This document shows positions 11,012 to 28,485 of a DNA stretch of 29,515 bases, in pieces (position 1 is the stretch's first letter; each line of letters opens with the position of its first letter). Source of the stretch: a virus; the IMG/VR virus record IMGVR_UViG_3300031669_000174, positions 1-29,515 of that record. The stretch is one strand, 5' to 3'. Below the pieces are notes generated by a model. It was not told the DNA's origin, did not search any database, and saw only the letters and a list, made by a program, of their open reading frames with translations. Both the position numbers and the translations under genes were made by a program.

Positions 11012-12798
11012 CAGTGTCCCCTTTGGGCGGAGGTCGGAAGGCTGGGCGTGGTTGTCAAACTGAGCTTCGGCTTGTAGTTGCCGTTGGCGTCAATGATGCC
11101 CTGCTGCCTTGCGTTATAGTAGAGCTGGTAGAGCAAGGTTGGGTCGAGTCCGCGGTAGTCCTGCGCCTTTCCGCCTGACTGCAGGAACTGTGCCTTGGCT
11201 TTGGTCTCCATGTCTGCGGCAAACTGTGCCGGGATGGTTGCACCACTGCTGCGCAATTCGAACACGCGCTTGGTATCATCACCATACCAGTGTTTATCCG
11301 TGACTACCTTCTGAACAAGCAGGGCGATGAGTTTCTTGGTGTTGTCCAAGGACCATTCCTGGCCAGACGCTTGCTGCGCTTCTTTGAGTTGGGAACGAAT
11401 GCTGGCAACCGCGGTATCCTCATCCGGCGAAAGCTTCGCGGTGTTCTTGATGACACCGGCCTGCTGAAGAGACGTGAGCAGGAGGTCGCTGTCCACATGG
11501 GTCTGCGCAACCTTGGCAGGGGTGGCCCGCATGTGGTTAATTTCGTTCATCGCCTTAAGGGTGTTCTGCAACCCGAGTTCACCCTGTTTCGCCCGCACCT
11601 GGCTGTCGGTCAAACTCAGCACGTTGGGGTCAGTCATCAGTTTCCAGTAGGCAACCCGCTGGGCGGAGATGGTCGCGGGATCGGTAGGGACGGCCCGCTC
11701 GATCTGCTCGCGCTTCATGTAGTCCAGCATCGATGCCTGCATCTTCTGAGGCATTGAGAGGTATGGTTGCGATGTGGTCACGGACCCGATGCTGTGGGTC
11801 TTATTCCAGATCCCGAAACTCGCATCAGAATTGGTAGACACCTGCTGCTCCGTCTGCGCTGAGTGCAGATTCACTCGGTCCTTGAGCTCAGCCTCGGCCA
11901 GCGTCTTCTGCTCGGGCGTAAGACCCCCACTCCTAACCCTGTCCGTCAGGATGCTGTTTGCATCGGCGATCCTGATGGACCCATCGGGGTTGGTAGTCTG
12001 CTTGACCACGTCATCCGCTGCGGCAAGGGCGGCAAGGTTGTCATTACCAGTTTTGGTGACCGATGTCAACCGTTCATAGTCCTGGGCGGTGACAAGGTTC
12101 TTGTTCTTTTCCAAGTAGGCTTGCGCCGTCGGGGCCAATCCCTTCTGAAGAGCGGCCGTGACAGTGGCGCTGACCACGGGAGACGTGAGTTGCGTGACGA
12201 ACGCGGTCTTGGCGTCACCCGTCTTGCCCTGTCGTTCAGCCTCCAGAGCCGCGGCGGTCTCAGTGGTCTGCACGTTGGTGCTGTTGACGATCTCCGTGGA
12301 CGGGTCTAACGCGGCCGCCTGCGCCGAAACCTTGGAGGTTCCGATCACTGTGTCCATGTGGAACACATCAGTCTCGTGGTTGAGATGCGCTTGGGCCTGC
12401 GCTTCGAACTGCGTATAGTGAGGCATGACCTTGGCGGTGAAGAGTCGTTGTGCCCCGCCACTCAGGTCCTTGGACAGTTCGTCTTGCTTGTCCTTCAAGG
12501 CCTGCATGGCCGCCTGGTCGGGGGTCAAACCGGTGTTAGGGTCCGGCTTGAGGGCCGCCTCACCGTGGACCTGACCAAGGTTTCCTAGTGTGGTGTTCTG
12601 AAACTCAAGATACTTGTAGAGGGTATTCTCGGATACCGCGTTGTCAGCACGGAACTGGACCTCTGACATGTCGCGCCCGAGATTAGAAAGTCCCTGACCG
12701 ATTGCCGCACCTGGGTTCGGCGCCTGCACGTTGAGCATCCCGCCAGGGGCACCTTGAGATTGAATCTTGGGCGTATCGTAGACCGGAAGTTGCGGCAT
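11011..12798 (-). CDS. Internal virion protein, gp15-like
   Basis: A 595-residue, mostly alpha-helical, Gln/Ala/Lys-rich soluble protein with no membrane segment or catalytic motif. It lies between the gp14-like and giant gp16-position genes, the place of T7 gp15, which forms part of the ejected core and trans-envelope channel. The N-terminus (PQLPVYDTPKIQSQGAP, then GLSNLGRDMSEVQ) resembles other podovirus proteins in this slot. The assignment rests mainly on synteny and composition. I chose the ATG at 12798, which overlaps the upstream TGA as TGATG; a GTG one codon earlier (12801) is possible. The C-terminal stop overlaps the next ATG in the same way. Confidence 0.7.
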   Translation of the reverse strand: MPQLPVYDTPKIQSQGAPGGMLNVQAPNPGAAIGQGLSNLGRDMSEVQFRADNAVSENTLYKYLEFQNTTLGNLGQVHGEAALKPDPNTGLTPDQAAMQALKDKQDELSKDLSGGAQRLFTAKVMPHYTQFEAQAQAHLNHETDVFHMDTVIGTSKVSAQAAALDPSTEIVNSTNVQTTETAAALEAERQGKTGDAKTAFVTQLTSPVVSATVTAALQKGLAPTAQAYLEKNKNLVTAQDYERLTSVTKTGNDNLAALAAADDVVKQTTNPDGSIRIADANSILTDRVRSGGLTPEQKTLAEAELKDRVNLHSAQTEQQVSTNSDASFGIWNKTHSIGSVTTSQPYLSMPQKMQASMLDYMKREQIERAVPTDPATISAQRVAYWKLMTDPNVLSLTDSQVRAKQGELGLQNTLKAMNEINHMRATPAKVAQTHVDSDLLLTSLQQAGVIKNTAKLSPDEDTAVASIRSQLKEAQQASGQEWSLDNTKKLIALLVQKVVTDKHWYGDDTKRVFELRSSGATIPAQFAADMETKAKAQFLQSGGKAQDYRGLDPTLLYQLYYNARQQGIIDANGNYKPKLSLTTTPSLPTSAQRGH

Positions 12799-13271
12799 CA
12801 CTTCCCCTTCTTACCAGACCCCGTAGACGAGGTATTGTAGGCGGATCCGAACCCGGTGAGGGCCGTGCCAATGGCACCGGTCGTGCCCATCAACGCTGCA
12901 GCATCACCAGCGTAACCAAGACCAGCGGCTTGGTTCTTGTAACCCCACGCTTCACGTAGAGCGTTGGTTCGGAGGGTCAAGGCATCGACAGTCCCCATCT
13001 CATTCGTTTGGTCGATCACCTTGCCGAAACTCTGTGACTCCACCGCTGCACCGCTTGCTCCCGCCGCCGCGGTCTGTGAGGCGACCAACTGTCGCACCTT
13101 CGACTGCTGGATCTGCTCAGCAGAAGATCCTCGCACCAGTGCATCAGATGCCTGGTAGTTGGCGACCATGGCGTTGCGGTTATCGATTGCCTGCTGGGTC
13201 TGACCCTGCTGGTATTGACCGGCGGCACTGATGACCGTGCCTACGGCCATGACGGCAAGTGGGCTACACAT
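12798..13271 (-). CDS. Internal virion protein, T7 gp14-like
   Basis: A 157-residue Ala/Gly/Gln-rich protein. A hydrophobic N-terminal stretch (PLAVMAVGTVISAAGQ) is followed by a helical Gln/Ala/Arg region (QAIDNRNAMVANYQ, SKVRQLVASQTAAAGASGAAV), the usual look of T7 gp14-type core proteins. In T7, gp14 is ejected first and forms a pore in the outer membrane. The real start is the ATG at 13271, which overlaps the gp13-like stop codon (ATGTGTAG). A longer reading frame upstream gives a low-complexity Arg/Ser extension inside gp13 and is not credible. Length is close to, but shorter than, T7 gp14 (196 residues). The C-terminus is Gly/Ser/Lys-rich. Confidence 0.75.
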   Translation of the reverse strand: MCSPLAVMAVGTVISAAGQYQQGQTQQAIDNRNAMVANYQASDALVRGSSAEQIQQSKVRQLVASQTAAAGASGAAVESQSFGKVIDQTNEMGTVDALTLRTNALREAWGYKNQAAGLGYAGDAAALMGTTGAIGTALTGFGSAYNTSSTGSGKKGK

Positions 13272-13734
13272 GGTGGCCCTCCAAGGTGAATGGGTGGAAG
13301 GGGAGATTGAAGGGTCCGTAAGGTATCGTCGGGTGGATCGTGAAGCCGAGCCAACTGAGCCAACGGATGGCACGCGCATTGCGCGCATCGACGTAGTTGA
13401 CCAGGTTCAACCAATCGCCCAGCACAGCCTGTAGACTTGGCCGGCATCGACGGATGAACATCGTTGCATAACGGTCCAGTCGCGTGGTTCCGACCAACCA
13501 TGGGGCACCCAGTCCAGTGGCCGCGGAGATGGGTGTAACCCCGAAGGCACAGATCGGTTCACCGTCCACCACAGCAACGAGGGCGTTGGAGAAGCGATCA
13601 CCCATGTCAAGCGCCTGTTCAGGTGTCATGCGACCCGCTGCCCACAGTTCAGCAATGTCCGCCTCACGGGTATTGATCGCCACGGCCGCAAGCAACTCAG
13701 GGGTAGCGGGGAGGATGTCGATTCTACGCTCCAC
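13264..13734 (-). CDS. gp13-like virion assembly protein (GNAT-like fold)
   Basis: A 156-residue protein of the phage Gp13/DUF2833 type: ADIAELWAAG near the N-terminus, a core VAVVDGEPICAFGV, then GAPWLVGT and a C-terminal DARNARAIRWLSWLGFTI, which resembles the end of a GNAT acetyltransferase fold. In T7, gp13 is needed for proper assembly of the internal core; enzymatic activity is not established for the family. It begins inside the end of the gp12-like gene. The best start is GTG at 13734, about 9 bases after a GGAGG ribosome binding site; TTG at 13737 is an alternative. It ends overlapping the gp14-like start by eight bases. Confidence 0.8.
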   Translation of the reverse strand: MERRIDILPATPELLAAVAINTREADIAELWAAGRMTPEQALDMGDRFSNALVAVVDGEPICAFGVTPISAATGLGAPWLVGTTRLDRYATMFIRRCRPSLQAVLGDWLNLVNYVDARNARAIRWLSWLGFTIHPTIPYGPFNLPFHPFTLEGHHV

Positions 13735-16603
13735 CAAAGGACACCTCCGGGATGATGGCCGAAAGACCGAAGGGTGTAGGACCGGTATGGCGGATCAAGG
13801 TCGTGCCGTTCTTATCCCACGTCGAGTTAATCCGCAGATCCACCAGGTCCGTCATCACGTTGGGCGCGGTGAAGTTGTCCGATACGAACCGCGTCTTCTG
13901 CTTGAGCAGGTGGTTTGCGTCAGGTCCTGCCCAGAAGGTGCGACTCTCATTCACCACCACGCGCAGGGTCGTGACCAACTTCATCTTGTCGCGCATGGTC
14001 TCACCAGGCGTCTGAGGCGCGATAGCCAAGGTCTCTACGTCTGAGTAGAAGGGTAGCCCATACTGCACCACCACAGCAGGTGGTGTCATGGTGATGGTCC
14101 CGTCCCCCGCTACTACCTGCTGGGCATACTCCTCGCCGTCACCCAGTATGTCCAGGGTCTCTCCGATGAGCCATGATGCCACTACCTTAGCCTTTGCCAG
14201 ACCCCAGGTTCCTACGGCCACGTTCCGGTCGGCCGCGGGGATGGTGCGATCGACGGTGCAATGTGCGTTGTAGTTGTCCACGAGGCTGGTAATGGTGCAG
14301 CGAATGGGCAGTCCGTCGGTGGGCGAGATGAGGACAATGACGTCACCTACCGCGGCGAGACTTCCGCTGAATGGCACCGTGACCGCGATGCTACCGGTGA
14401 TGGTAAGACCAAGGTCGACGTTGTCCCAGGTCGTGCCACCAGACAGTGTCATGGTGGAGGACCAGGTGGTGTTGCTGGACCGACGGCCGTCCCAGGTCGT
14501 GCCACAATCCACGAAGAACCCGTCACGGATGTCGGTCACGATGCGAGTGTCGAACCGTTCGATGAACCGCTTGGTCACACCATTGATGACACGACGCACC
14601 ACGGCGTAGAGGACGTCCTCCTGGCCTTCACTCACGCAGCACACTGACTCATAGAAACCTTGGGTGGCATGCCAGTGCCACGCGACTACCTGCTGCTCAC
14701 GTAGGTAGGTCAGGCCAAGCAACACCCCGTCGTCACGCACCATCCATGCGCAATGGAGAGGAGCCCTTTGAAAGGTCCAGTCGACGATGTAGTGACCATC
14801 GATCAGATGCGACCCCTTAGCCGTAAGGTTGTCGCCTGTGTAACTGTCGCTTGCCCACTGGTAAGAGAGGTCATGAACAACTTGGCCCTTGTTCTCCACG
14901 TAGAGGGTTACCATGCCGATGCCGATGGGAGGTAGATCTGAGGCACCGTCGTAACCCTGCAACTTCACACTCACATTCGATGGAGTGAGCACATCAGTCG
15001 CCTGCCCGGTGCCAGTGACCCACACCGATCCGGTGGTCAACACCAGCAACTTACCGATCTGGACCATGGACTTGATCTGGTTGACCTCTGAACTCCCCAT
15101 CGTGAAGACGACCGAATCGGTGTCAAGGATGGGGTTCGTCTCATTGAAGTTGGAATAATCGTTTGTATTGCTGGTCCAGATAGTGTCAGGTGCCAGGGGC
15201 GTGCCGGCAAAGCAAAGACGCTGCTGGTAGTAGGTCACCGCAGACGGATACCCAGGACCACCAATAGATGAATCACCGAACGCGCCGAATGCCCACTTGT
15301 AGGACGCTGAACCAACGGTTCCAACAGGTGGCTTGAAGCTACTCACTTGAAGATGACTTGTGTAGGGCCAGGCAAACAGGATCGTATTCGCGTCCACCAC
15401 AGAGAAACTCGTTGTGTATGGAAGATAAACGCCAAATGCTGTATCGTAGAAGGTTGCCAATGTGGTGCCGTAAAGACCGACCGTAAGACCGTGCGCTACG
15501 GCTGTTCCGAGAGTGTTGCCAGCGACGTCCGCACTACGCGCCGTGATGTTGATGGACCCGGCGAACCCAGCACTTGTGGTGCCGTCGGGCAGACGGCTCA
15601 TCACGTCCGCCGTAGCCGATAACCCACCAACTGCAGTGGCCGTGATTTTAGCCACACCAAACCCATTATGCAGATAAACCCAGTCTACACCACCGTCATT
15701 CCACCGGTCTTCAGTGCCGATCGGGATGTTGGTCCCTGTGGTCCCAGCAGTAAGCGCCTTGTAATAATTACCGTTCGCACGCCGCACATCATTGATCGCC
15801 ACGACCTTACCAGGTTCCCACGCCTGACCGAAATCCTTCTGCTCAAGGTAGAAAAGTTGACCAATCTGAGTCGAGTTGAAGATCGCCTTGTTGGCCGTGA
15901 GTGTCACCGTGCCCACGTTGGCTGAGGACCAAACTGAACTGGTCTTGTCAACGTTCACATCTTGGAATGGACCTGAGTTCAACGTCTGCGGTTGGAAGGT
16001 CCATTTGACGTCAGAGTAGCGACTCAACTGAGACGGTGGTGTCTGCGGTTGCACGAAGGTCATCACATCTGCGGACTGCGTGCGTTTGATGGTGGTCTGT
16101 TGAGGCGCGGTGTAGGACGTCTTCAGCTCAAGAATACCGGTGCCACCGGGTTGAAGCATCGTCAAAGCATACCAGTTGCCCGCGGCCAGGTCCGTGGCAA
16201 AGGTGCCTGAGACATGCGGCACCAAACAGTAGTAGATCACGTTGGCCTGCATGACATAGTCAGCGAGTGCGTAGTTCGTAGCGGTCAACCATGCAGTGGT
16301 AGCCACATTGCTCACCGTCTGCTGGACACCATTACTTACGATGCGCAGATACCCAACGCCAACCTCAACCACATAGGTCTGCTGGTTGTTGAAACTGAAC
16401 GGCATGACCCGCGCCGCACCATCATTCTTGACCTCGCACACGTAGCGCGACCCTGACCGGTTCATGACACCGCCGTAAGGTTTCACGATCGTGTTGTAGC
16501 AGGTCTTGAGGCTGTTCTTATACCACGCCAGATCCACCATCCCGTAGAGGGTCGGCGGCAACTCACCCCCTGACAGGGATGCTTGGATCAGGGACAGACT
16601 CAT
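13724..16603 (-). CDS. Tail nozzle / tail tubular protein B (T7 gp12-like)
   Basis: A 959-residue beta-rich protein. The N-terminus (LSGGELPPTLYGMVDLAWYKNSLKTC, then PYGGVMNRSGSRYV, and VMPFSFNNQQTYVVEVG) is the diagnostic opening of gp12-type nozzle proteins. Further recognisable pieces are PSAVTYYQQRLCFAGTP and DTIWTSNTNDYSNFN around residues 455-480, LVLTTGSVWVTGTG, and VRDDGVLLGLTYLREQQVVAWHWH around 630. Six copies of this protein form the distal podovirus tail tube. It is longer than T7 gp12 (794 residues), with extra beta domains in the middle and C-terminal thirds. It overlaps the gp11-like gene by four bases (ATGA), and its last 14 bases or so overlap the gp13-like gene. Confidence 0.9.
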   Translation of the reverse strand: MSLSLIQASLSGGELPPTLYGMVDLAWYKNSLKTCYNTIVKPYGGVMNRSGSRYVCEVKNDGAARVMPFSFNNQQTYVVEVGVGYLRIVSNGVQQTVSNVATTAWLTATNYALADYVMQANVIYYCLVPHVSGTFATDLAAGNWYALTMLQPGGTGILELKTSYTAPQQTTIKRTQSADVMTFVQPQTPPSQLSRYSDVKWTFQPQTLNSGPFQDVNVDKTSSVWSSANVGTVTLTANKAIFNSTQIGQLFYLEQKDFGQAWEPGKVVAINDVRRANGNYYKALTAGTTGTNIPIGTEDRWNDGGVDWVYLHNGFGVAKITATAVGGLSATADVMSRLPDGTTSAGFAGSINITARSADVAGNTLGTAVAHGLTVGLYGTTLATFYDTAFGVYLPYTTSFSVVDANTILFAWPYTSHLQVSSFKPPVGTVGSASYKWAFGAFGDSSIGGPGYPSAVTYYQQRLCFAGTPLAPDTIWTSNTNDYSNFNETNPILDTDSVVFTMGSSEVNQIKSMVQIGKLLVLTTGSVWVTGTGQATDVLTPSNVSVKLQGYDGASDLPPIGIGMVTLYVENKGQVVHDLSYQWASDSYTGDNLTAKGSHLIDGHYIVDWTFQRAPLHCAWMVRDDGVLLGLTYLREQQVVAWHWHATQGFYESVCCVSEGQEDVLYAVVRRVINGVTKRFIERFDTRIVTDIRDGFFVDCGTTWDGRRSSNTTWSSTMTLSGGTTWDNVDLGLTITGSIAVTVPFSGSLAAVGDVIVLISPTDGLPIRCTITSLVDNYNAHCTVDRTIPAADRNVAVGTWGLAKAKVVASWLIGETLDILGDGEEYAQQVVAGDGTITMTPPAVVVQYGLPFYSDVETLAIAPQTPGETMRDKMKLVTTLRVVVNESRTFWAGPDANHLLKQKTRFVSDNFTAPNVMTDLVDLRINSTWDKNGTTLIRHTGPTPFGLSAIIPEVSFGGA

Positions 16604-17271
16604 CGCAGCACCCCATACTGATCGGTGAGGCCGTCGGGCGGGAGCGGGCCGGTAAGACCACGGATGGCGAGCAACTCGCTCATTGGCTGCACGTCACCCT
16701 GTCCTTCGTTCATCATCTCCGCAGAAGCGATGCTGAGTTCACGGTAGAACCCACCCATGAGGTTGGTGGCCACATCGGGCTTCAAGGACAGAGGTGTGCT
16801 GATCTCAGCACCAAGACGGTAGGCCAGGGCAGACGTGGCCATGGGTCCCCACAGGTTGAGGTCAACAACCCGGGCCGTGTAGACCAACTCAGGCGTCTCC
16901 ATATCCGTGTAGATCTCCCGCGCGGTGCCATCTGTTCCAATCTGGAACGGGATCTTCATGTCTTCGCGCGGGTTGCGAAGCCCAGGGTAGGTGATGTATC
17001 GTGCGTTGAGGCAGTCAGACGGGTAGGCGTAACGGTAATGCCAGTTGGCGGGCGGGGTTCCCTTGTCGGTGAGCAGCAACCGGGTGGTGGCAAAGGTCCA
17101 TGGAGCGGACATCAGCACGTAGTCCAGGATCATGTCATAGAACAGACGGCAGACCATTGCCTCCTTGGTTTGTTCCTTGACATCCTGGACAGTGGCGAAC
17201 GTGTTGTTGGGTGCGTTGAACACACCACACCGCGCCAACGCCATATTGAAGACATCCACCTGTGCCGCCAT
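16600..17271 (-). CDS. Head-tail adaptor / tail tubular protein A (T7 gp11-like)
   Basis: A 223-residue protein with the gp11-type signature: DVFNMALARCGV at the N-terminus, helical KEQTKEAMVCRLFYDMILDYVL, SAPWTFATTR, and a WHYRYAYPSDCLNARYI motif near residue 80, followed by YTARVVDLNLWGPMATSALAYRLGAEIS. These proteins form the dodecameric adaptor ring between portal and nozzle and include the helices that open and close the tail channel. The length is slightly above T7 gp11 (196 residues). The ATG follows a GGAGG ribosome binding site, and the stop overlaps the nozzle gene by four bases. The synteny of adaptor followed by nozzle supports the call. Confidence 0.9.
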   Translation of the reverse strand: MAAQVDVFNMALARCGVFNAPNNTFATVQDVKEQTKEAMVCRLFYDMILDYVLMSAPWTFATTRLLLTDKGTPPANWHYRYAYPSDCLNARYITYPGLRNPREDMKIPFQIGTDGTAREIYTDMETPELVYTARVVDLNLWGPMATSALAYRLGAEISTPLSLKPDVATNLMGGFYRELSIASAEMMNEGQGDVQPMSELLAIRGLTGPLPPDGLTDQYGVLR

Positions 17272-17283
17272 CCGAGCCTCCTG

Positions 17284-17544
17284 TTACTGCTTCCAGTTCT
17301 TGGCCTTGGTGTTCTTCTGCTCAGAGGCCGCCAACTCACTGAGGGTGGTCGGTTCCTGAACCTTGCTCACTGGTTCATCAGGTGGCACCTCGTGGGCGCG
17401 CGCCCAGTTGAGGGTCTTGTCCGCCAGACTTTCGACCACGTGCAGGATGTCACCGCGCATGCGCATGCCGCCGTCATGGAAACAGGTTCGCAGCACCCGC
17501 ACCTCGACAAGTGCCTCTTCTTTGATGTCATTGAGCTTTGTCAT
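17284..17544 (-). CDS. Hypothetical protein between the capsid and connector modules
   Basis: An 86-residue polar protein (MTKLNDIKEEALVEVRVLR...) that I do not recognise. The first half is predicted alpha/beta with a FHDGGMRMRGDILHV segment; a MRxGDxV-like pattern of this kind is seen in small phage proteins of unknown role. The second half is Pro/Glu/Lys-rich and probably disordered. The ATG at 17544 is preceded by AAGGAGACACGAC, a good ribosome binding site. The upstream alternative start (17571) would run into the 17567-17643 hairpin and is unlikely. It lies just 12 bases before the adaptor gene and just after the branched RNA element, so its expression may depend on how that element is processed. 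Confidence 0.6.
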   Translation of the reverse strand: MTKLNDIKEEALVEVRVLRTCFHDGGMRMRGDILHVVESLADKTLNWARAHEVPPDEPVSKVQEPTTLSELAASEQKNTKAKNWKQ

Positions 17545-17566
17545 GTCGTGTCTCCTTGAAAGACCG

Positions 17567-17643
17567 ACCACCCTCGTTTCAGGTCAGGATCGGGCTTAGC
17601 CCGTCGACCTCAGTCGGCTTGTGGGATCCGAAACGAGGGTGGT
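17567..17643 (-). promoter_or_regulatory. Large branched hairpin (14-bp perfect outer stem) between capsid-cement and connector genes
   Basis: The perfect inverted repeat ACCACCCTCGTTTC (17567-17580) and GAAACGAGGGTGGT (17630-17643) encloses 49 bases. Inside, GGATC (17587-17591) can pair with GATCC (17625-17629), CGGGC-TTA-GCCCG (17591-17603) forms a hairpin, and CGAC-CTCA-GTCG (17605-17616) forms another. An alternative pairing AGGTC (17581-17585) with GACCT (17606-17610) is possible. In the late transcript it follows the cement stop codon and ends about 22 bases before the next ATG. There is no run of U after the stem, so it is not a standard intrinsic terminator. It could be an RNase III processing or attenuation site separating highly expressed capsid genes from low-copy connector genes. 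Confidence 0.8.
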
Positions 17644-17662
17644 GTAGTCATGGTTCAGTCGC

Positions 17663-18106
17663 CTAGATCAGCGCGGCGGTGGCGGTCCACTGGTTGGGAT
17701 CGTTGGTCAGGAAGCAGTCCAACGAACCACCGGTGATGGCGGCACCGATGGTGTGCTGGATAACGCCGAGGAACTGCTCATAGGTAGCCTGAGGGAGCTG
17801 CACGGCGCAGATCCGCGTGCCGGCCTTCGCGTTGGCGAGGGCGATGGTCTGGCTGATGAAGAGCGTGGTCTGGCTACCATCAACCGCGATGGCGGCCTGG
17901 CTGTCACTAGCGAGCTCGATGCTGATGGAGCTGCCCGCGCCCGTAAGGTCCGCCTTGATGACCGCCACGAAGTAGATGTCGCTGTCGTTACCGGGGTAGT
18001 CCTTCGTGGTGCGAAGGTCGATAACGTCACCAATGAGGTAGAGACCGGCGCCACCACCGTTGGGGGTGACGCCAGCGCAGAAGTTTCCGAGCTTGTCGAG
18101 GATCAT
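17663..18106 (-). CDS. Capsid cement/decoration protein, Bbp16 family
   Basis: A 147-residue protein beginning MILDKLGNFC, with the order GLYLIGDVIDL, DIYFVAVIKADLTGAGSSISIELASDSQ, TLFISQTIALANAKAGTRICAVQLP and CFLTNDPNQW. This matches the Bbp16-type cement proteins of BPP-1-like phages, beta-barrel dimers that sit on the outside of the capsid and lock capsid subunits together. It follows the major capsid gene by 12 bases with a strong AAGGAGAGG ribosome binding site, the same gene order as in BPP-1. The length is typical. No membrane or catalytic features are expected or seen. Confidence 0.87.
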   Translation of the reverse strand: MILDKLGNFCAGVTPNGGGAGLYLIGDVIDLRTTKDYPGNDSDIYFVAVIKADLTGAGSSISIELASDSQAAIAVDGSQTTLFISQTIALANAKAGTRICAVQLPQATYEQFLGVIQHTIGAAITGGSLDCFLTNDPNQWTATAALI

Positions 18107-18118
18107 GTTGGCCTCTCC

Positions 18119-19120
18119 TTAGTTCAGGCTGGTTTCGGTGGAGAGGAGGGCATCCGTGCGAAGCACGGGAATGCCATCGAACATGGTGACATGCTTGCCA
18201 CCAACGGTCTCCTCAGTGAGGTTGTAGGCGACCTTCTTCAACTTCTGAAGTCGCAGGAAGGTGAGGGCCTTGCGGTTCATGCAGAACACAGGGCGGCAGG
18301 CGCCCAGGTTGGGGATGAGTTCCTCGGCCTGCACCATGAGGTTGACGAGGTCCGCGCCGGTGCTGAGGTCAGCGGTCAGGAGCGAACTGTCGATCGAGTG
18401 GATGCGGACGTTGTAGCGCCAGTCCTGCACGGTGAGACCAAGGTCCCAACGGTAGTGGCTGAGGTAACCTTCCATGAAACCGGTGCCACCATTGAAGTTC
18501 TGCAGGGTCATCTGGCCCTTGTCCTCAACCTGCAGACCAGCCTGGCTGCCCTTGGGGTAGATGCCGTAGGTCTTGTCAGGCGCGAAACCGAGTAGCCAGA
18601 TCGACATGCAGTCCGTCTGACCGTTGAGACCACCACCGTCGAGAAGGTTCTCAGCATTGGGGGCAGTCTTGCTGTTGTAGCGAGGTGTGAACCCCGTGAA
18701 ACTTTCGGGCACAAGGTTCTCATTGCCGTAGAACAGGGTGCTCACGGCCTTCTGACCCATGGCCTCGATGAACGCCTTATCCTCAGAGAGGCGGAAGGCG
18801 GCGGTGTTTCCGTTCAAGTCGGCCAAGGCCTTGTCGATGGCGGCATAGGCTTCAAGCATACCGCAGGAGTCGATCACAGGGATCGTCTCGCTCTTGTCCG
18901 ACGCGACGACGCCGTAGAGCTTGCGGAAGTTGACCGTGGGCAGGTAGGTGCGGACGATGGACTTGTGGCCGGTAGGCAGGTTACCCTGGACATAGGCCAT
19001 GTAGTCGAGGACCGGGTTGACCCCGTTGAGGATCTCAGCGACGACGCCGATTCGACCGTCACCTCCGGTCCGTTTGGCCACGTCGAGAAGCGTGGGGAAG
19101 TTGTTGGTAAGGGTTGCCAT
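18119..19120 (-). CDS. Major capsid protein, BPP-1 (Bbp17) type
   Basis: A 333-residue HK97-fold-type capsid protein. The recognised pattern is: TNNFPTLLDVAKRTGGDGRIGVVAEILN at the N-terminus, YVQGNLPTGHKSIVRTYLPTVNFRKLYGVV, an ID..GMLEAYAAIDKALADLNG segment, FRLSEDKAFIEAM, TLFYGNENLVPESFTGFTPRYN around 130-150, and DWRYNVRIHSIDSS around 245. This is the capsid family of BPP-1-like podoviruses. The ribosome binding site AAGGAG lies about 9 bases before the ATG. It follows the scaffold gene by 12 bases and precedes the cement gene, giving the standard scaffold-capsid-cement order. No capsid maturation protease gene was recognised nearby, as expected for this lineage. Confidence 0.92.
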   Translation of the reverse strand: MATLTNNFPTLLDVAKRTGGDGRIGVVAEILNGVNPVLDYMAYVQGNLPTGHKSIVRTYLPTVNFRKLYGVVASDKSETIPVIDSCGMLEAYAAIDKALADLNGNTAAFRLSEDKAFIEAMGQKAVSTLFYGNENLVPESFTGFTPRYNSKTAPNAENLLDGGGLNGQTDCMSIWLLGFAPDKTYGIYPKGSQAGLQVEDKGQMTLQNFNGGTGFMEGYLSHYRWDLGLTVQDWRYNVRIHSIDSSLLTADLSTGADLVNLMVQAEELIPNLGACRPVFCMNRKALTFLRLQKLKKVAYNLTEETVGGKHVTMFDGIPVLRTDALLSTETSLN

Positions 19121-19132
19121 GATGATGGCTCC

Positions 19133-19789
19133 TTAGGACTTGTTCATGTTGGGGAACAGGACGGAAGCATGATCAGTCTCACTGATCGGTCCGCCTGCCA
19201 CAGGGGTGTCTTCTTGACCGGCCTTCCCAAGCTTGGCGAAGGTGCGGAGAAACTCAGGATGGTTGCCCAATCCCGTCAACTCCACGAAGGCTTTGAACTC
19301 AGGCGTGGACCACTTGGCGAACCCGGCCTGAGCCAGTTTCTGCGTCGCTTCCCACTGCTTGCCACCGATCTCCTTGTCAGTCTTCGATGCCTCGAGCCAC
19401 GCCTCGGTCTGCTTAGCAGCCGCGGCTTGGTTCATGGCGACCTGGGCGTCGGCCAGCTTCTGAGCACCTTCATTCGTGATGCCTAACTCCTTGAGGACAG
19501 GACTGATCGCGGCCAACGCATCGGCATCAATCGTCACACCCTCAGGAGCCTTGATGTCGTAGGTCTCAGGCACCACGGATTTCGCATCCGACTTGGTCTG
19601 CTCGTCGCCCTTGGTTTCTTCAACCTTCGCACCCGTGTCATCAACGAGTTTGTCTTCGACCTTCACCTCGTCAGTCTTGACCGTGGTTTCTGGCGTCTTC
19701 CCCTGGTCGGGAAAGAGCGATGCGGCCTGGTCGGTCGCGGTGTCACCGGTAGTTTGTGTGTTCCCGGTGGTGGTTGTTTCGTCAGCCAT
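19133..19789 (-). CDS. Scaffolding protein
   Basis: A 218-residue, highly acidic, low-complexity protein. The first 75 residues are Thr/Asp/Glu/Lys-rich (MADETTTTGNTQTTGD..., VKTDEVKVEDKLVDD) and probably disordered. The second half is helical (LAAISPVLKELGITNEGAQKLADAQVAMNQAAAA), with a KEIGGKQWEATQKLAQAGFAKW motif and a short C-terminal tail. This composition, and the position directly before the major capsid gene, are typical of podovirus scaffolds, which nucleate procapsid assembly and then leave. The right start is the ATG at 19789, overlapping the Bbp19-like stop by eight bases (ATGGCTGA). A longer upstream reading frame is shadow sequence. Confidence 0.87.
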   Translation of the reverse strand: MADETTTTGNTQTTGDTATDQAASLFPDQGKTPETTVKTDEVKVEDKLVDDTGAKVEETKGDEQTKSDAKSVVPETYDIKAPEGVTIDADALAAISPVLKELGITNEGAQKLADAQVAMNQAAAAKQTEAWLEASKTDKEIGGKQWEATQKLAQAGFAKWSTPEFKAFVELTGLGNHPEFLRTFAKLGKAGQEDTPVAGGPISETDHASVLFPNMNKS

Positions 19790-20150
19790 TGGCTGCCTCC
19801 TTGTTGGAAAGGTCCTCAAGTTGCATTTGGGCGTAAGCCTTTGGATCAGCGAAGGCAATCTCCTCGATGATCCTGTTACCAATGGCGGCCTCACCCGTCA
19901 GTCGCGCCATGGTCAGAGCGTTCGTGTTGAACGGATCCTGGTGGGTGCGGCACATCCCAATCAGGCGGTAAAGCAACCTGCGTCCTTCAGGCAGGGCAAG
20001 GACGGCCAGCATGTCATTGTTGGTGCGCTGCTGCTCGGTGAGACCCTGGGTCTTGCGCTGCTTCACCGACTTAACATCACCAGCATCGAATTTGCTAGGT
20101 TCCACCGGTGGGGCGGGCATCCTCAGGACGACCTCAACCTTGCCGCTCAT
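19782..20150 (-). CDS. Bbp19-like phage protein
   Basis: A 122-residue protein whose C-terminal 70 residues show the Bbp19-like pattern: LALPEGRRLLYRLIGMCRTHQDPF, then a TGEAAIGNRIIEEI..ADPKAYAQMQLE ending. This small domain is encoded next to portal and scaffold genes in BPP-1-like phages; its function is not established in the work I know. The N-terminal 50 residues are polar and Lys/Gln-rich. It overlaps the upstream membrane coiled-coil gene by four bases (ATGA) and the scaffold gene by eight, which implies coupled translation within the head module. Confidence 0.8.
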   Translation of the reverse strand: MSGKVEVVLRMPAPPVEPSKFDAGDVKSVKQRKTQGLTEQQRTNNDMLAVLALPEGRRLLYRLIGMCRTHQDPFNTNALTMARLTGEAAIGNRIIEEIAFADPKAYAQMQLEDLSNKEAANG

Positions 20151-20500
20151 CGCTTCTGCCCCCGCTCCAAGATCCGCGTGACCTTGTCGTCCAGGTTGTC
20201 AAGCTTGCGGTTGACTAACCCCATGCTGGAACGGGCGTCGACGTCCTGGCGCTCATTGATCATCTTCTCCTGCTTGACCGCCTCGTCCACGGAGCTGATC
20301 TTCAGGTCCTGCGTATTGAGGCGCCCAAGCAACCACATCAACGCGGAGATGAGCATCCCGAGCATGATCAACAGGTTGCCCAGGTCGATGCTTTTGTTGA
20401 CGTGCCAGCGTCGACGGTTGCCATGTAGCATGCTACTGAACGCGTCATCATATCCATCATAGTCCTCAGGAATGATAGGAGTGTTTCCACCTGGCGTCAT
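20147..20500 (-). CDS. Membrane-anchored coiled-coil protein in the head module
   Basis: A 117-residue protein with one predicted transmembrane helix (about residues 38-59, IDLGNLLIMLGMLISALMWLLG), preceded by a basic RRRWHVNK flank and followed by a polar helical, coiled-coil-like tail (SVDEAVKQEKMINERQDVDARSSMGLVNRKLDNLDDKVTRILERG). The N-terminal 30 residues are acidic. I do not recognise a named family. The architecture resembles holin-like, inner-membrane spanin-like or superinfection-exclusion proteins, but it lies between portal and Bbp19-like genes, so an ejection-related or minor virion role is also possible. It overlaps both neighbours by four bases (ATGA). Confidence 0.7.
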   Translation of the reverse strand: MTPGGNTPIIPEDYDGYDDAFSSMLHGNRRRWHVNKSIDLGNLLIMLGMLISALMWLLGRLNTQDLKISSVDEAVKQEKMINERQDVDARSSMGLVNRKLDNLDDKVTRILERGQKR

Positions 20501-22224
20501 GCGCCACCTCCAGGAGCTGCCTGCTGTGGGGTCTGCATCCGGCCGAGCAGCTGTGCCAGCGCATTGTTGTCAGAGACGTTGGACTGGCTGAGGGTCTTGG
20601 CGGTGTTGGCGGCGGATGCGGCTTGTTGTGAGGCAGCTTCAGCCTGTGCCTGTTGGGCGCGCGCGGCACGGATCTGATCACGAACCGCTTCATCATTAAA
20701 GAGTTCAGGTGGTGTGCCGTTCATGTCTGAGTAGACGGTGATGACGTTGTCCGCATTGAAGTTGTCACGAATCTCAGGAAACTCCTGCATAAGACCACCC
20801 GCGAAGGTCATGGTCCGTTCGATACTGTTGATCCCGATCGCCTTCATCGCCTGGCTCATGGGGCTGATGTATTCGATCATCAGGTTCTTGCCAACGAGTT
20901 CCGGTGGAGGCGGCGGGATGATGGGTGATCCGTTGAGCCTGCCCTCCCAATACGGACGACTCTTGTCGGTCACGATCTGCGTGTATCGCCCGACGATCGG
21001 GTCAAGCGCCTCGTCGTTGAGTCGCAGGTAGGCGGGCCCAAGTGCCAGCAGTTTTTCTTCCTGCCTCGCCATGATCTCCGTGGCGGTTGCTTCGCGGTCG
21101 AGACTGGACACGAGCAAGAACAGATCCTTGTAGAAGGCACTGTCAATGCGACCCTGAACCTCGCGGATGTCCTCAAGCAGATACTGCATTCCACCAAGTT
21201 GGGTCTGGTAGGTCGTCTGGATCCCCTGTTGTCCAGTCATCACGTCGATGTAGGTGACACCGCCAGGCAGGTTGGAAACACCGGTGCCCTTCTTCTCAAG
21301 TGAGGTAGGTGCTGAGGTGGGCGGGTTCACGTGTTTGTCAATGACTGTGACCTTGCGACGCTGCTCAAGTTGCAGAGCCATGATGTCACCAAGCGCCACC
21401 ATGCCTGGGCAGTTGGAACCGTAGCTGTCCTCACCCGTGACCTCCCATCGAGGCGCGATGAGCGGATTGCTGTCGAACCCAGCCTTGCGAAGATACTTGT
21501 CCGGTTCGCTACCCTGCTCGTAATAAATCGAGCGCATGGGTTTCTTGGTGATGGATCCAGGTTGGTAGTCGGGGTTGGGTTCCATCACGCGGACAACCGT
21601 GTGCCATTGGTCGTAGGCGCCGGTGTCATACTGACCACGCACCTCGAGGCTGCATTGGTTGTAGCCAAACATCCCAACCAACTGGCTCGTGGTCATCTGA
21701 AAGTTGCGGTAGATTGAGTCCACCATCAACCGACCACTGAGACCCAGGTAGTAGCTGCCAACCGGGTAGTGGTAGCAACGTGCGGTAGTCTGGTCGTCCT
21801 TAAAGATCTCGAAGGCAGAGGTGGCGAACCCACTGATGTCCTGGTAGACCATGGGCAGAACCGTGTAGAGGTTCGACTTAAGCATCACACCCGAGACCGC
21901 CTTGCGCACGGTGTCGAGGTAGGCACGCGTTTTGTGCCACTTGTTCAGGTCAGGATCCTCAGTCTTGTATTGGAACCACGGCTTCGTAGGGTTGGTCGCA
22001 GATGACATGAACCCAGCACTGAGCACGCGACTCGCGAGGGTAGCGGTACAGTCGTTGATCTTTGGATTCCGCTTGTTGCCTTGGTTGCGGTCAAAAACGA
22101 GGAACCGTGAAGCACGCGGCAATAGGTAGTCAGCAATGTCCATGTAATGACGCTGCCAAGTAGAGAACTCGGTCTTGAACGCGCTCAGTCGCTGGTTGTA
22201 GTGGTCACGCTCAGACATCGCCAT
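20497..22224 (-). CDS. Portal protein (T7-type head-tail connector)
   Basis: A 575-residue protein of the podovirus head-tail connector family. Recognisable pieces are MSERDHYNQRLSAFKTEFSTW..HYMDIADYLLPRASRF at the N-terminus, RVLSAGFMSSATNPTKPWF near 70, FATSAFEIFKDD near 130, PVGSYYLGL and NCPGMVALGDIMALQ, and TATEIMARQEEKLLALGPAYLRL around 385-405. The last 60 residues are Ala/Gln-rich. Twelve copies would form the portal ring for genome packaging and ejection. The true start is the ATG at 22224, preceded by GGGGGCC; a second ATG two codons later is possible, and the longer upstream frame overlaps the preceding small gene and is rejected. The length is close to T7 gp8 (536 residues). Confidence 0.92.
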   Translation of the reverse strand: MAMSERDHYNQRLSAFKTEFSTWQRHYMDIADYLLPRASRFLVFDRNQGNKRNPKINDCTATLASRVLSAGFMSSATNPTKPWFQYKTEDPDLNKWHKTRAYLDTVRKAVSGVMLKSNLYTVLPMVYQDISGFATSAFEIFKDDQTTARCYHYPVGSYYLGLSGRLMVDSIYRNFQMTTSQLVGMFGYNQCSLEVRGQYDTGAYDQWHTVVRVMEPNPDYQPGSITKKPMRSIYYEQGSEPDKYLRKAGFDSNPLIAPRWEVTGEDSYGSNCPGMVALGDIMALQLEQRRKVTVIDKHVNPPTSAPTSLEKKGTGVSNLPGGVTYIDVMTGQQGIQTTYQTQLGGMQYLLEDIREVQGRIDSAFYKDLFLLVSSLDREATATEIMARQEEKLLALGPAYLRLNDEALDPIVGRYTQIVTDKSRPYWEGRLNGSPIIPPPPPELVGKNLMIEYISPMSQAMKAIGINSIERTMTFAGGLMQEFPEIRDNFNADNVITVYSDMNGTPPELFNDEAVRDQIRAARAQQAQAEAASQQAASAANTAKTLSQSNVSDNNALAQLLGRMQTPQQAAPGGGA

Positions 22225-22225
22225 G

Positions 22226-22423
22226 TCAGGCCCCCAACACGGTCTTAGGTGCCGTGGATGAAGCAGCGTTGAACCCACCGGCTAGGATGGTCGACTGGCG
22301 ACCACCCATTGCAGCACGACGCTGCCGGTCACGATCGATGGCGGCCACAACCGCCGGGTCTGATGGGGTCGCCGCTGCAGGTGGCGGTGTGGCAGATGGG
22401 ATGCTCGGTCCACCAAGGCACAT
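22226..22423 (-). CDS. Small conserved phage protein between terminase and portal
   Basis: A 65-residue protein: MCLGGPS at the start, a Pro/Ala-rich linker, an alpha-helical DPAVVAAIDRDRQRRAAMGGRQSTILAGG, and a C-terminal PKTVLGA. I recall the same pattern (MCxGG..., RQ.R....G..STILTGG, KTLLG) in small proteins next to the portal gene of other podoviruses; no function is assigned to them. It starts two bases after the large terminase stop, with its ribosome binding site (AAGGAG) embedded in the terminase C-terminal codons, and stops one base before the portal ATG. The conserved Cys2 is notable but there is no lipoprotein signal peptide. Confidence 0.75.
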   Translation of the reverse strand: MCLGGPSIPSATPPPAAATPSDPAVVAAIDRDRQRRAAMGGRQSTILAGGFNAASSTAPKTVLGA

Positions 22424-22425
22424 GG

Positions 22426-23913
22426 TTACTCCTTCATCGCGAATGGATCGTAGGCGCCAGAATCCTGGTGCTTAGTTTGAACAGGAAAACCGAAGTCATC
22501 ACGCCTGCCTGGTGCTACGGGAAAGGCGAACGTAAGGGCGACGGCGTCAGCACGGTCAGGTGAGCGACCGAGTTCTTCACGCACCTCCTCCTTCTCGTTG
22601 ATCTTGAGCTTGTCCCCGTTGTAGCTGTAGGTGATGGCGAGTAGTTCGTCGCGCAGCATGGTCTCGCCCTTGGGGATCGAGCCGCCCGCCTTCACCCACT
22701 TCGCCATCTCAAAGATCATCTCAGAGCGCTTGTTGAAGTAGTGATGGTCGTTGCTGCGGCCGGAGAAGTAGACCTCTGTGCATTGACGATTCATTGTGGT
22801 GCGCAGGCAATCGACCACGCCTGCGCCGTATCCACCCGTCGCATCCACGAACGTGGCGTCATCTTGGGCGGCATCCTGCTCCTGCGCCACCTGCTGGGCG
22901 ACAAGCACAGAGTCTGGGATGTGCATAGGTTTCAATGGGAAGAGCACATTCCCATGCCGATGCGCGATGACGGAGTCGTCCAGTCCTTGGCGCGCCACAT
23001 CCACACCAAGGATCTTGGCGGCGAACTCGAACTGCCCCTTCTTGTAGACCCGCGCCATTGCGGCATCGACCTCAGCAGCGGTGAGCAACGCGTTCACGTC
23101 TGCGGATGGGAACTGACCAAGCACGCGGATCTTAGCGAAGTCAGACTCAATCCCATAGTCGTCAAGCCACGCCTGCAGCTGCGTCTTGTTCGTCATGCGC
23201 GCCGTGCGGCTATCGATCTGCCTGGTATTCCACCGGTGCTTGAAGCGGCCAAAACATTCGCGGAAGCGACCGCGGCTTCTGGTGGGGTTGCCGAACGCGC
23301 ACCAGATAATCTGCGTGCCCTCATCAGTCAGGGCGCCCTCAGCAACCTCCCAGATGCCATCAGGAATGGCCGAAGCTTCGTCGAAGACAAGCAAGACACG
23401 CTTGCCTTTGTTGTGGAGTCCTGCGAACGCCTCAGTGTTGCGCTCAGACCAAGGCACCATGTCCACGCGCCAGGTCTTGTCATGGTCCTTGGTGGTGCTG
23501 AACAAGGCCGTGGCGGTGAACTCGAACCAATGGCGGTTGATGGCGAGGCGATGCCACTTGGCAAGTTCTGACCAGGTCTTTGTTTTCAACTGGGTCTCAG
23601 TGTTCGCGGTGACGATGCCCTTGGTATCCTCCATCGTAGACATTGCCCAATAGATGATCCACGCCACCAAAGCAGATTTGCCAATGCCGTGACCCGATGC
23701 CACCGCCTCCTGAATCGCCTCGGTGGGGGTGAGCAGCCCCATCTTGATGTCATTGAGAATATCGCGCTGCCAGTCGTCGGGTCCGTCAGGGAACTTCTCG
23801 AGTTCTCCATTCTCGCCCCATGGGAATGCCAACAGCACGAAGGCGAGCGGATCGGCCCGGCAGTCCATCACCAGGTCAATGAGCTCCTCTTCAAGCTGCA
23901 GGTAGTCAGTCAT
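22426..23913 (-). CDS. terL: Terminase large subunit (packaging ATPase-nuclease)
   Basis: A 495-residue two-domain motor. The ATPase domain has Walker A SGHGIGKS (73-80, Lys79) and Walker B VLLVFDEAS (Asp178, Glu179), with a GNP coupling-like motif at 208-210. The RNase H-like nuclease domain has its first acidic residue at GVDVARQG (Asp305), a second at VDATGGYGAGVVD (357-368), and the C-terminal SPDRADAVAL motif (Asp453/Asp456). All key residues are present, so it should be active. TerL packages DNA into the procapsid and cuts the concatemer. It is somewhat shorter than T7 gp19 (586 residues). Its ATG overlaps the small terminase stop by four bases. Confidence 0.96.
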   Translation of the reverse strand: MTDYLQLEEELIDLVMDCRADPLAFVLLAFPWGENGELEKFPDGPDDWQRDILNDIKMGLLTPTEAIQEAVASGHGIGKSALVAWIIYWAMSTMEDTKGIVTANTETQLKTKTWSELAKWHRLAINRHWFEFTATALFSTTKDHDKTWRVDMVPWSERNTEAFAGLHNKGKRVLLVFDEASAIPDGIWEVAEGALTDEGTQIIWCAFGNPTRSRGRFRECFGRFKHRWNTRQIDSRTARMTNKTQLQAWLDDYGIESDFAKIRVLGQFPSADVNALLTAAEVDAAMARVYKKGQFEFAAKILGVDVARQGLDDSVIAHRHGNVLFPLKPMHIPDSVLVAQQVAQEQDAAQDDATFVDATGGYGAGVVDCLRTTMNRQCTEVYFSGRSNDHHYFNKRSEMIFEMAKWVKAGGSIPKGETMLRDELLAITYSYNGDKLKINEKEEVREELGRSPDRADAVALTFAFPVAPGRRDDFGFPVQTKHQDSGAYDPFAMKE

Positions 23914-24446
23914 GATTGATCCTCGTCCTTCCGCTTACGCGCCTTAGCGAGGCGGTCAGCAAGATCGAGGTTCATGTTCATGTTGATGTTCTCAGTGCGC
24001 TGCCGATATTTGTCAGGGCAGTTAGCAGAAAGCAGGAAGGCAATGAGCGTGTTGCTATACACGCGCTTGGTGCCAACGAGCGCACCACCCTGGTAGATAG
24101 GTTCGTCGACTCCCTGGTGGGCGCGTCTGTGTGCCTCAGCCTCAAGCGCCTCGATGCCACACTTCATGGCCTCCTCATTGGCGGCCTTGTAGACGGGATC
24201 GAAGTGGCGGCGGTCGTAGTCTGATTTGATACTGATGCCGGACTTTTCACAAGCCATGACGCGGTTGGCGTGGTGGGTGAGTTCCTCAAGCAGGATTCCC
24301 CACCGCTCTTCGCTGATCTTGGGTTGAATGTAGCTTCCCTTCGCAGGACCTCGTTTGCCGGGATCAGACGTAACCTTCTGCGCGTGTCCCCGTCGCTTTG
24401 GCGGCAGCGCAACGGGCTCAGTTTTCTTCGGTGGTTTAGGGCTCAT
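23910..24446 (-). CDS. terS: Terminase small subunit
   Basis: A 178-residue protein. The basic Pro/Lys-rich N-terminus (about 1-45) is followed by a helix-turn-helix-like region (LLEELTHHANRVMACEKSGISIKSDYDRRH) and the typical small-terminase oligomerisation region EALEAEAHRRAHQGVDEPIY, then GGALVGTKRVYSNTLIAFLLSANCPDKYRQR. It ends in a charged helix. It recognises packaging DNA and loads the large subunit. It is the first gene of the leftward late operon, so its upstream region (24447 onward) should hold the late promoter. The start ATG is preceded by GAGG about 8 bases upstream; the next gene overlaps by ATGA. Confidence 0.9.
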   Translation of the reverse strand: MSPKPPKKTEPVALPPKRRGHAQKVTSDPGKRGPAKGSYIQPKISEERWGILLEELTHHANRVMACEKSGISIKSDYDRRHFDPVYKAANEEAMKCGIEALEAEAHRRAHQGVDEPIYQGGALVGTKRVYSNTLIAFLLSANCPDKYRQRTENINMNMNLDLADRLAKARKRKDEDQS

Positions 24447-24575
24447 GGTAATACCTCGTTATCACTTAATTCTATGTCGCGCCTACACCAAATGACCACG
24501 CGTGTAAACACCTTTGTGAGCTTAGCACAATGTTGTAGAGTCACCTAGAACGTGGTCCTTGCACGCTTTGATGGG

Positions 24576-24587
24576 TGTGCATGCACA
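24576..24587. repeat. 12-bp perfect palindrome TGTGCATGCACA (double octamer site)
   Basis: TGTGCATGCACA is fully self-complementary and contains the octamer TGTGCATG on both strands, overlapping. A further single copy (TGTGCATG, followed by CG) lies at 24626-24633, and a one-mismatch reverse copy (TATGCACA) at 24675-24682. It looks like a binding site for a dimeric protein. Confidence 0.75.
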
Positions 24588-24640
24588 ACTTGGGTCATCT
24601 ACAAGCACATATCCAAAACGATGCTGTGCATGCGTAAGTA

Positions 24641-24750
24641 GTGAAAAAAAAGTAGATAGATACAGTTCTACACATATGCACAATCTTTTCTCTATTCTAA
24701 TTAGAGAAAAAGTAAGTAATATAGTAGTATAAAAATAGATAATATATAAG
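24641..24750. other. AT-rich island (possible DNA unwinding element)
   Basis: By direct count this 110-base stretch has about 25 G or C bases (23%), in strong contrast to the surrounding GC-rich genes. It has an A-run at its left end and TATATAAG at its right end, with several TATAAT-like hexamers on both strands. It is flanked on both sides by TGTGCATG octamers. This is the expected look of a duplex-melting element beside initiator sites, although strong promoters could give similar composition. Confidence 0.65.
24685..24712. repeat. Inverted repeat inside the AT-rich island
   Basis: CTTTTCTCT (24685-24693) and AGAGAAAAAG (24703-24712) form an eight-base perfect stem (TTTTCTCT/AGAGAAAA) around the nine-base loop ATTCTAATT. 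It could form a hairpin on either strand and might serve as a terminator separating divergent transcription, a primase or initiator site, or an operator. Confidence 0.65.
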
Positions 24751-24765
24751 GGTTTTGGAAGTATG

Positions 24766-24801
24766 TGTGCATGTGTGCATGTGTGCATGGATGTGTGCAA
24801 C
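24766..24801 (+). repeat. Tandem octamer array (iteron-like): TGTGCATG x3 plus a variant
   Basis: Three perfect head-to-tail copies of TGTGCATG occupy 24766-24773, 24774-24781 and 24782-24789. After a four-base spacer there is a variant TGTGCAAC at 24794-24801. A reverse-orientation copy (CATGCACA) lies at 24835-24842. The array borders the right side of the AT-rich island and lies about 180 bases upstream of the first early gene. Confidence 0.85.
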
Positions 24802-24846
24802 CATGTCCCTGGTTACATCGCGGAGCCCTACCTACATGCACACGCA

Positions 24847-24860
24847 CACATACGTATGTG
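24847..24860. repeat. 14-bp perfect palindrome CACATACGTATGTG
   Basis: CACATAC/GTATGTG is a perfect dyad five bases after the reverse octamer at 24835-24842. It shares the CACA/TGTG ends of the octamers but has a different core (TACGTA), so it may bind a different dimeric regulator. Confidence 0.7.
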
Positions 24861-24952
24861 CGGCAGGCCGATTTGGCGCTTACGCGCGGGTTGCATCATG
24901 GCCTGCGTCAAGTCGGTTTTCCGTATTTCCGCGGTTTACCCGGGTCTGTATT

Positions 24953-24958
24953 TATAAT
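24953..24958 (+). promoter_or_regulatory. Candidate -10 box (TATAAT) for the early operon
   Basis: A perfect TATAAT lies 25 bases before the ATG of the first early gene, in the context GTATTTATAATAATATC. No good -35 hexamer is present at 16-18 base spacing, so activation by a protein bound at the upstream palindromes or octamers is plausible. The same TTTATAATA core occurs before the 27474 gene. Confidence 0.4.
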
Positions 24959-24983
24959 AATATCGAATGCCTCGAGGTAATCT

Positions 24984-25310
24984 ATGGGCAAGCACCGATC
25001 CAAACCGCCTACCCCTGCGGCCACTGGTCCGTTCATCCCAGATGAAGGGCAGAGACCCAAGAAGAACGATGGCGCCCGTCGTCATTGGGACAAATATCGC
25101 GAATCTCAGCGATTCCAGGTGCTCACCACCGAGGACGGCCAGGACACCGAGGTGGTCGTTGACAGTTACGAAGAACTTGCCCAACACCTCAATCTAAGTA
25201 TCAGCACGCTTCGTCAATACTTTGCCGGCGGCGGCGGTAATTTCAAAAGAACCTTTGAGGGCAAGATCGTCATCGTTACGCGCGGAAGGACGGCGCCCAA
25301 TGGCCGTTAA
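24984..25310 (+). CDS. HTH-like small early protein, candidate regulator or replication accessory factor
   Basis: A 108-residue protein. The first 45 residues are Pro/Lys/Arg-rich (MGKHRSKPPTPAATGPFIPDEGQRPKKND) and probably disordered and DNA-contacting. The C-terminal part has a compact domain: VVDSYEELAQHLNLSISTLRQYFAGG followed by beta-type NFKRTFEGKIVIVTRG. The helix-turn-helix pattern (SYEELAQHLNLSISTLRQYF) plus a short beta-hairpin resembles the NUMOD1-like HTH modules attached to phage proteins, but I cannot name a family. It is the first gene right of the control region; CGAGG about 7 bases upstream serves as ribosome binding site. Its end overlaps the primase-helicase start by 11 bases, so the two are co-translated. 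Confidence 0.65.
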   Translation: MGKHRSKPPTPAATGPFIPDEGQRPKKNDGARRHWDKYRESQRFQVLTTEDGQDTEVVVDSYEELAQHLNLSISTLRQYFAGGGGNFKRTFEGKIVIVTRGRTAPNGR

Positions 25311-27393: not shown

Positions 27394-27420
27394 TTCGTAA
27401 AAATGACGGTTTTCTTGGTT

Positions 27421-27426
27421 TATAAT
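27421..27426 (+). promoter_or_regulatory. Candidate -10 box (TATAAT) upstream of the 51-residue gene
   Basis: A perfect TATAAT lies 28 bases after the primase-helicase stop, in the context GGTTTATAATAGACC, inside a short AT-rich stretch. A -35 hexamer at standard spacing is poor (AT-only sequence). It would drive the small gene at 27474, which has a terminator-like structure right after it. Confidence 0.4.
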
Positions 27427-27473
27427 AGACCCACCGACGGACCGTGTGCCGTCTCAACCACAAGGAGGCCTAC

Positions 27474-27629
27474 GTGGCCATCGACATCAAGGAAACCAAG
27501 ACCAAGCTGAAGGAACTCAACAAGGACCGGAAGCTCAATGCCCGCGAGCTGGCCAAGCTGCAGAAGATCGACGGTGCTCTCGCCACCAAGATCGGCAAGT
27601 TTGAAGCCAAGCTGGCCGCCGCCGAGTAG
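27474..27629 (+). CDS. Lysine-rich small helical protein (51 residues)
   Basis: A GTG-start reading frame with a near-consensus ribosome binding site (AAGGAGG, 27462-27468) 5 bases upstream. The product is almost entirely charged alpha helix: IDIKETKTKLKELNKDRKLNARELAKLQK then IDGALATKIGKFEAKLAAAE, with heptad-like hydrophobics suggesting a short coiled-coil hairpin. I do not recognise a family. It sits in its own transcription unit: a TATAAT box 48 bases upstream and a terminator-like structure 13 bases downstream, which suggests strong independent expression. Small, early, basic helical phage proteins are often host-takeover or DNA/RNA-binding factors, but that is inference. An upstream ATG at 27444 lacks a ribosome binding site. 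Confidence 0.6.
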   Translation: MAIDIKETKTKLKELNKDRKLNARELAKLQKIDGALATKIGKFEAKLAAAE

Positions 27630-27642
27630 GTCCTGGCCACTC

Positions 27643-27700
27643 ACTCCGCCGCTCGTTGGGTTGTGCCCAAGGCGAGAACCTGATGAGCGGCGGAGTTTTT
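27643..27700 (+). terminator. Intrinsic terminator-like structure with 12-bp stem and branched loop
   Basis: ACTCCGCCGCTC (27643-27654) pairs perfectly with GAGCGGCGGAGT (27685-27696), followed by a T-run (27696-27700). The 30-base loop itself contains TTGGG-ttgtg-CCCAA (27656-27670) and a weak AGG/CCT pair (27670-27672 with 27679-27681), so it can fold as a multi-branch junction. The next gene starts 13 bases after the T-run with an AAGGAG site directly behind it, so it could act as an attenuator rather than a full stop. Confidence 0.75.
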
Positions 27701-27712
27701 CAAGGAGCATCC

Positions 27713-27937: not shown

Positions 27938-27938
27938 C

Positions 27939-28450: not shown

Positions 28451-28485
28451 CACTTAGATCCTTGAAAGAATCTTGAAAATAATGA

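Follow-up and report, generated by a model that had tools for sequence, protein, structure and literature searches.

The linked genes of tailed phages have to supply several hundred subunits for the shell as against roughly twelve for the connector, and the locus described here raises the question of how such a step in expression could be set. The window, by which we mean the full 29,515-base record, is that of a podovirus akin to Bordetella phage BPP-1; its late genes lie on the minus strand in the order terminase, portal, protease, major capsid, cement, an 86-aa gene and tail/adaptor. The major capsid protein (MCP) gene (18119..19120, minus strand; phrog_212) is followed by the cement protein gene (17663..18106, minus; Pfam Bbp16 PF21190, phrog_427), by the small 86-aa gene (17284..17544, minus), which matches BPP-1 bbp15 and BcepC6B gp10 by position and partly by sequence and for which a Pfam search returned no match, and by the tail/adaptor protein gene (16600..17271, minus; phrog_394, BPP-1 bbp14-like). 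Gene order and spacing suggest that the MCP, cement and downstream genes form one transcription unit. The small and adaptor genes are 12 nt apart, and the 118-nt gap between the cement and small genes harbors a stem-loop at 17567-17643. A first-pass annotation had placed this element at the boundary between head and tail expression, and the stem does follow the MCP and cement genes; it had also described the stem as lying between cement and connector genes, of which the upstream half holds, but the next gene is the small one, which is no identified connector, the adaptor gene coming second.

Structure of the stem-loop

On the mRNA (minus) strand, the element consists of an outer stem of 16 pairs, with its 5' arm at 17643-17628 and its 3' arm at 17582-17567, that encloses a 45-nt loop; the paired arms were mapped to 17567-17585 and 17625-17643. 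The perfect 14-bp stem reported at first pass was recovered as 14 Watson-Crick pairs, to which the transcribed strand adds a G-U and then a G-C pair, and it lies beyond all shuffles: when the 118-nt gap was dinucleotide-shuffled 400 times, the stem score was never equaled. The minimum free energy (MFE) is -40.1 kcal/mol on the minus strand (z -5.19; 0/200 shuffles as low) and -42.9 kcal/mol on the plus strand (z -5.51). By stem score the element ranks first among 735 windows on the minus strand of the record, and is outscored in the same record by a plus-strand hairpin at 27643-27696. The latter is intrinsic-terminator-like, with 20 pairs followed by TTTTTC, and abuts the next plus-strand gene at its Shine-Dalgarno sequence and ATG (27713); inspection by eye found no such hairpin upstream of the L003 relative of that gene.

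The interior of the loop is less certain than the outer stem, because the minus-strand MFE structure has an ensemble frequency of 0.12 and the centroid carries a single hairpin. The claim of at least two internal hairpins is therefore matched by the MFE structure and not by the centroid: a weakly supported 4-bp hairpin (17605..17616, minus) is missing from the latter, while a 5-bp hairpin (17591..17603, minus) keeps its core there. Searches of Rfam gave no hit, either for the window at gathering thresholds or, at E <= 1, for 241-base stretches spanning the elements of the window and L003, and a search of one literature library found no paper on the post-cement stem element of the window.

Replacement of sequence in the nearest relative

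Related loci compared with the window are given L-numbers. The nearest, L002 and L003, represent a single virus (identity 100% across 7983 nt) whose MCP is 71% identical to that of the window, so that the stand-alone form of the stem is known from only one independent close relative. As a protein-pattern query against viral contigs, the L003 MCP recovered L002 and L003 only, and the adaptor protein gave zero matches. In L003, whose small-to-adaptor gap is 9 nt, a stem of 19 pairs that closes a 47-nt loop spans +13..+97 after the cement stop, as compared to +19..+95 in the window, and its MFE structure follows the same plan, with an outer stem plus two loop hairpins. The flank CUUUC(C)AAGGAGACAC, upstream of the small gene, is common to both viruses; in the window, the 3' flank of the stem reads CGGUCUUUC, then the Shine-Dalgarno sequence AAGGAG, with no proper U-run, and CUUUC and the AAGGAG of the small gene occupy 17552..17562 (minus), the L003 counterpart being CUUUCC-AAGGAG. 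A DNA pattern for the CUUUC-AAGGAGACAC flank matched L002/L003 and three other loci, in which upstream folds, judged by eye, gave no comparable long stem after the cement gene.

Counted from the base up, 11 of 16 stem pairs differ on both sides between the window and L003, one differs on one side, and four are the same. The two viruses share 73% DNA identity in the cement gene and 76.5% in the MCP gene, while outside the flanks the gap aligns at 67.6%, which is at chance level (shuffles: mean 60.8, maximum 76.1). As the flanks match, the gap is near chance and 11 of 16 pairs have changed on both sides, it appears that pairing was retained or regained while the sequence was replaced. Pairing is kept in the closest relatives; its loss in relatives would have counted against the first-pass reading. 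The chance-level alignment also makes it possible that the two stems are separately acquired elements.

The fact that the stem pairs on both strands could also point to a DNA element, such as a mobile inverted repeat, a recombination site or a cruciform, with no role as RNA. We consider this extremely unlikely: among 108 viral loci bearing the exact 14-nt arm, none has the other arm within 200 nt, and the L003 stem requires G-U pairs, which function on the mRNA strand only. A mobile element was rejected, whole-element copies not having been found elsewhere among these 108 loci. An integron attC site was likewise set aside; attC sites carry a GTTRRRY motif, which does not occur at the base of this stem.

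Long-loop stems across the family

The family comprises 129 loci, 121 of which have a callable cement gene; 84 remain after removal of near-duplicates, and 83 of these have enough sequence. An MCP match was present in 91 phage records, of which 8 were taken for examination; gene starts in relatives were chosen by script rather than curated, and L006 and L050 end before the post-cement region. Long-loop stems that begin no more than 30 nt from the cement stop were scored in the 83 loci against 60 random placements per locus. Six loci exceeded all of their own placements, where about 1.4 are expected, and L002 (rank 1), the window (2), L005 (3) and L004 (7) each did so. Stems with at least 15 Watson-Crick pairs and a loop of at least 30 nt were present after the cement gene in L002, the window and L005 among the 84 loci; one more, a 19-pair stem in L016, was discounted as a probable assembly artefact, the ORFs of that contig being repeated in inverted order. 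L210 also scored high in the random-placement test, with a z of -0.62 for the folded stretch, whose coordinates are an estimate. In L228, a very stable fold (2450-2590, z -5.86) covers the beginning of the small gene, a short distance past cement.

L004 and L005 are the next relatives by MCP identity (64% and 62%). Their long-loop stems, of 12 pairs at +25 nt (z -6.9 for the stem region) and 15 pairs at +4 nt (z -4.4) after the cement stop, respectively, overlap the start of the gene directly after cement, which is glycosyltransferase-like (Pfam PF00535), and may for this reason serve translation, or another purpose, there. In both loci (L004 5092-5166, L005 4838-4904) the glycosyltransferase-like start codon pairs with codons roughly 10-20 downstream, its AUG being opposite the CAU of a KDESH/KNEAH stretch.

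Terminator-like hairpins at the head/tail step

In most relatives the small gene begins about 10-20 nt after cement, and the gap comes later, before the adaptor gene. This small-to-adaptor gap is at least 35 nt in 27 of 34 dereplicated loci in which it was measured and is below 150 nt; the best hairpin lies beyond shuffles in 17 of the 27, and 13 of these 17 are followed by a U-tail. Tail scores reach at least 3.3 in 25/27 such gaps and exceed the background 99th percentile (3.41) in 24/27. The BPP-1 hairpin, CGGGGGC-TTCGT-GCCCCCG-CTTTTTC, is an example, although its stem, scored without the tail, stays within the range of shuffles (9/100). MCP-to-cement gaps behave differently from these: they are at least 35 nt in 29/84 dereplicated loci, with a hairpin beyond shuffles in 11 of the 29, a U-tail in 0/11, and all 17 scored tails at or below 3.05. 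In L040, L058 and L081, hairpins of 17-18 pairs with 4-nt loops and no U-tail lie about +325 after the cement stop, between the small gene and the next.

The stem of the window could accordingly be read as a weak or degenerate intrinsic terminator, an attenuator with partial read-through. The hairpin is GC-rich, as that of an intrinsic terminator would be, and stands at the step where relatives bear terminator-like hairpins. It is followed by CUUUC, and if the stem is extended by GAC/GUC pairing, seen by eye and unpredicted by the fold, the UUUC adjoins it and the tail score rises to 3.53. As folded, the tail scores are 1.9-2.6 in the window and 2.72 in L003, against a background 95th percentile of 2.92 and the values of at least 3.3 in 25/27 relatives, and both group with the tail-less class; the script did count the window as having a U-tail in the cement-to-small class, from the four T of GTCTTTC, an assignment that is not followed here. 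A terminator scan of 11000-29515 lists nothing at the stem, in line with the earlier remark that a U-run is lacking, and the TTTTT of the 27643-27696 hairpin indicates that this phage does carry U-tailed ones. The stem is not a canonical intrinsic terminator, and a degenerate one is distinctly unlikely.

The BPP-1-like hairpins resemble the stem in giving structure to the head/tail step within the same phage group, but have short loops and U-tails and mostly follow the small gene, whereas the stem of the window has a long loop and no U-tail and precedes it. The presence of such hairpins in relatives, at this same step but one gene later, strengthens the case for a boundary role. A gap before the adaptor is missing from the window, L003 and L004 (in L004 the genes overlap at this point), and the post-cement stem thus looks like a replacement, in this clade, of the terminator-like hairpin of most relatives. 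The family can do without the element, as L190, L213 and L230 lack both a stem after cement and a gap between the small and adaptor genes. A comparable arrangement is that of T7, in which the terminator Tphi follows the major capsid gene. In the T7-like phage LUZ100, a strong terminator is described directly after the MCP gene (PMC10134795), so that control of expression at the post-capsid step is itself common; terminators of this type occupy the same place in the expression program as the stem of the window, but stop RNA polymerase, while the stem has no U-tail.

Cleavage and translation as possible alternative roles

A serious rival reading is that the stem serves as an RNase III site, and that its cleavage would separate the capsid-cement message from the distal message in the manner of the T7 R sites. 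A long GC-rich stem is present in both the window and L003, and R1.1 of T7, as described in PMC6121014, is a comparable structure of 60 nt, so that the two share the character of an intergenic phage RNA fold of 60-80 nt. However, R1.1 has a small, asymmetric 4/5 internal loop (PMC6121014), while the 16-pair stem is capped by a multibranch loop. Furthermore, the continuous helix, of 16 pairs in the window and 19 in L003, falls below the 22-nt double-stranded criterion given in PMC5371410, coaxial stacking of the inner hairpins aside, and a T7-like RNase III site is for this reason possible but not favored; we regard it as unlikely.

The stem could also act on translation: a start codon or mini-ORF at its base would let it govern reinitiation past the cement stop. 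A putative coding mini-ORF of 13 codons (MTTPPSFRIPQAD; 17610..17651, minus) begins 11 nt past the cement stop in the window and traverses the 5' arm, and one of 12 codons in L003 begins at +12 and does likewise. The next gene of L005 has its AUG buried in the stem, with an unpaired probability of 0.0005, and the L004 stem begins at the AUG, although this AUG is unpaired at 0.58 in a fold that omitted the stem end. In addition, small-gene starts are less accessible than MCP and cement starts across 63 relatives (p 4e-6 and 8e-8, respectively). Against this, the two mini-ORFs have no sequence in common, and an open stretch of 12-13 codons is no rarity by chance; the small-gene Shine-Dalgarno sequence lies outside the stem and is fairly open, being unpaired at 0.42 in the window and 0.60 in L003; and adaptor starts are no more open than small-gene starts (p 0.38, 50 loci), in keeping with a general signature of low expression. 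Translational control is thus very doubtful. A broader form of it would have a fast-evolving post-cement stem replace the head/tail terminator in the clade by acting on ribosomes that leave the cement gene, which would reinitiate or fail at the AUG at the stem base, that of the mini-ORF in the window and L003 and of the glycosyltransferase-like gene in L004 and L005. This is a long shot; if it were true, stem folding would set how far the distal genes are translated and also how well the capsid message survives.

Proposed protection of the capsid-cement message

The reading we prefer, to which we give about an even chance, is that the intercistronic stem-loop after the capsid-cement pair sets the drop in expression mainly by protection of the 3' end. 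The stem would sit in a late polycistronic mRNA between the capsid-cement pair and the minor head-tail genes, where a long GC-rich stem could block 3'-to-5' exonucleases; after downstream decay or cleavage, the capsid-cement message would outlast the distal part, and endonuclease processing nearby may assist. A stable stem between two genes, with no U-tail, is the structure of an intercistronic mRNA-stability stem-loop. Protection of the upstream message fits best because the element has no U-tail, lies within an operon, and is preceded by equimolar shell genes and followed by those of minor proteins; in BPP-1, the two shell proteins are reported as equimolar, at seven each per asymmetric unit (PMC3863775). 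Differential mRNA decay within operons, pufBALMX included, is treated in PMC5927463, and the puf and malEFG stem-loops cited there resemble the present one as stable hairpins that, within a polycistronic message, separate the gene of an abundant product from that of a scarcer one; they differ in that the stem of the window lies in a phage late operon and has a branched 45-nt loop. The stem would then alter mRNA abundance by protection rather than by cleavage or termination, and probably helps to yield far more shell protein than tail protein.

The head/tail step is apparently marked in two ways within one phage family, by a U-tailed hairpin in most members and by a long, tail-less stem in one clade. 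These two markings would offer a natural comparison of termination and RNA stability as means to set the stoichiometry of the virion.
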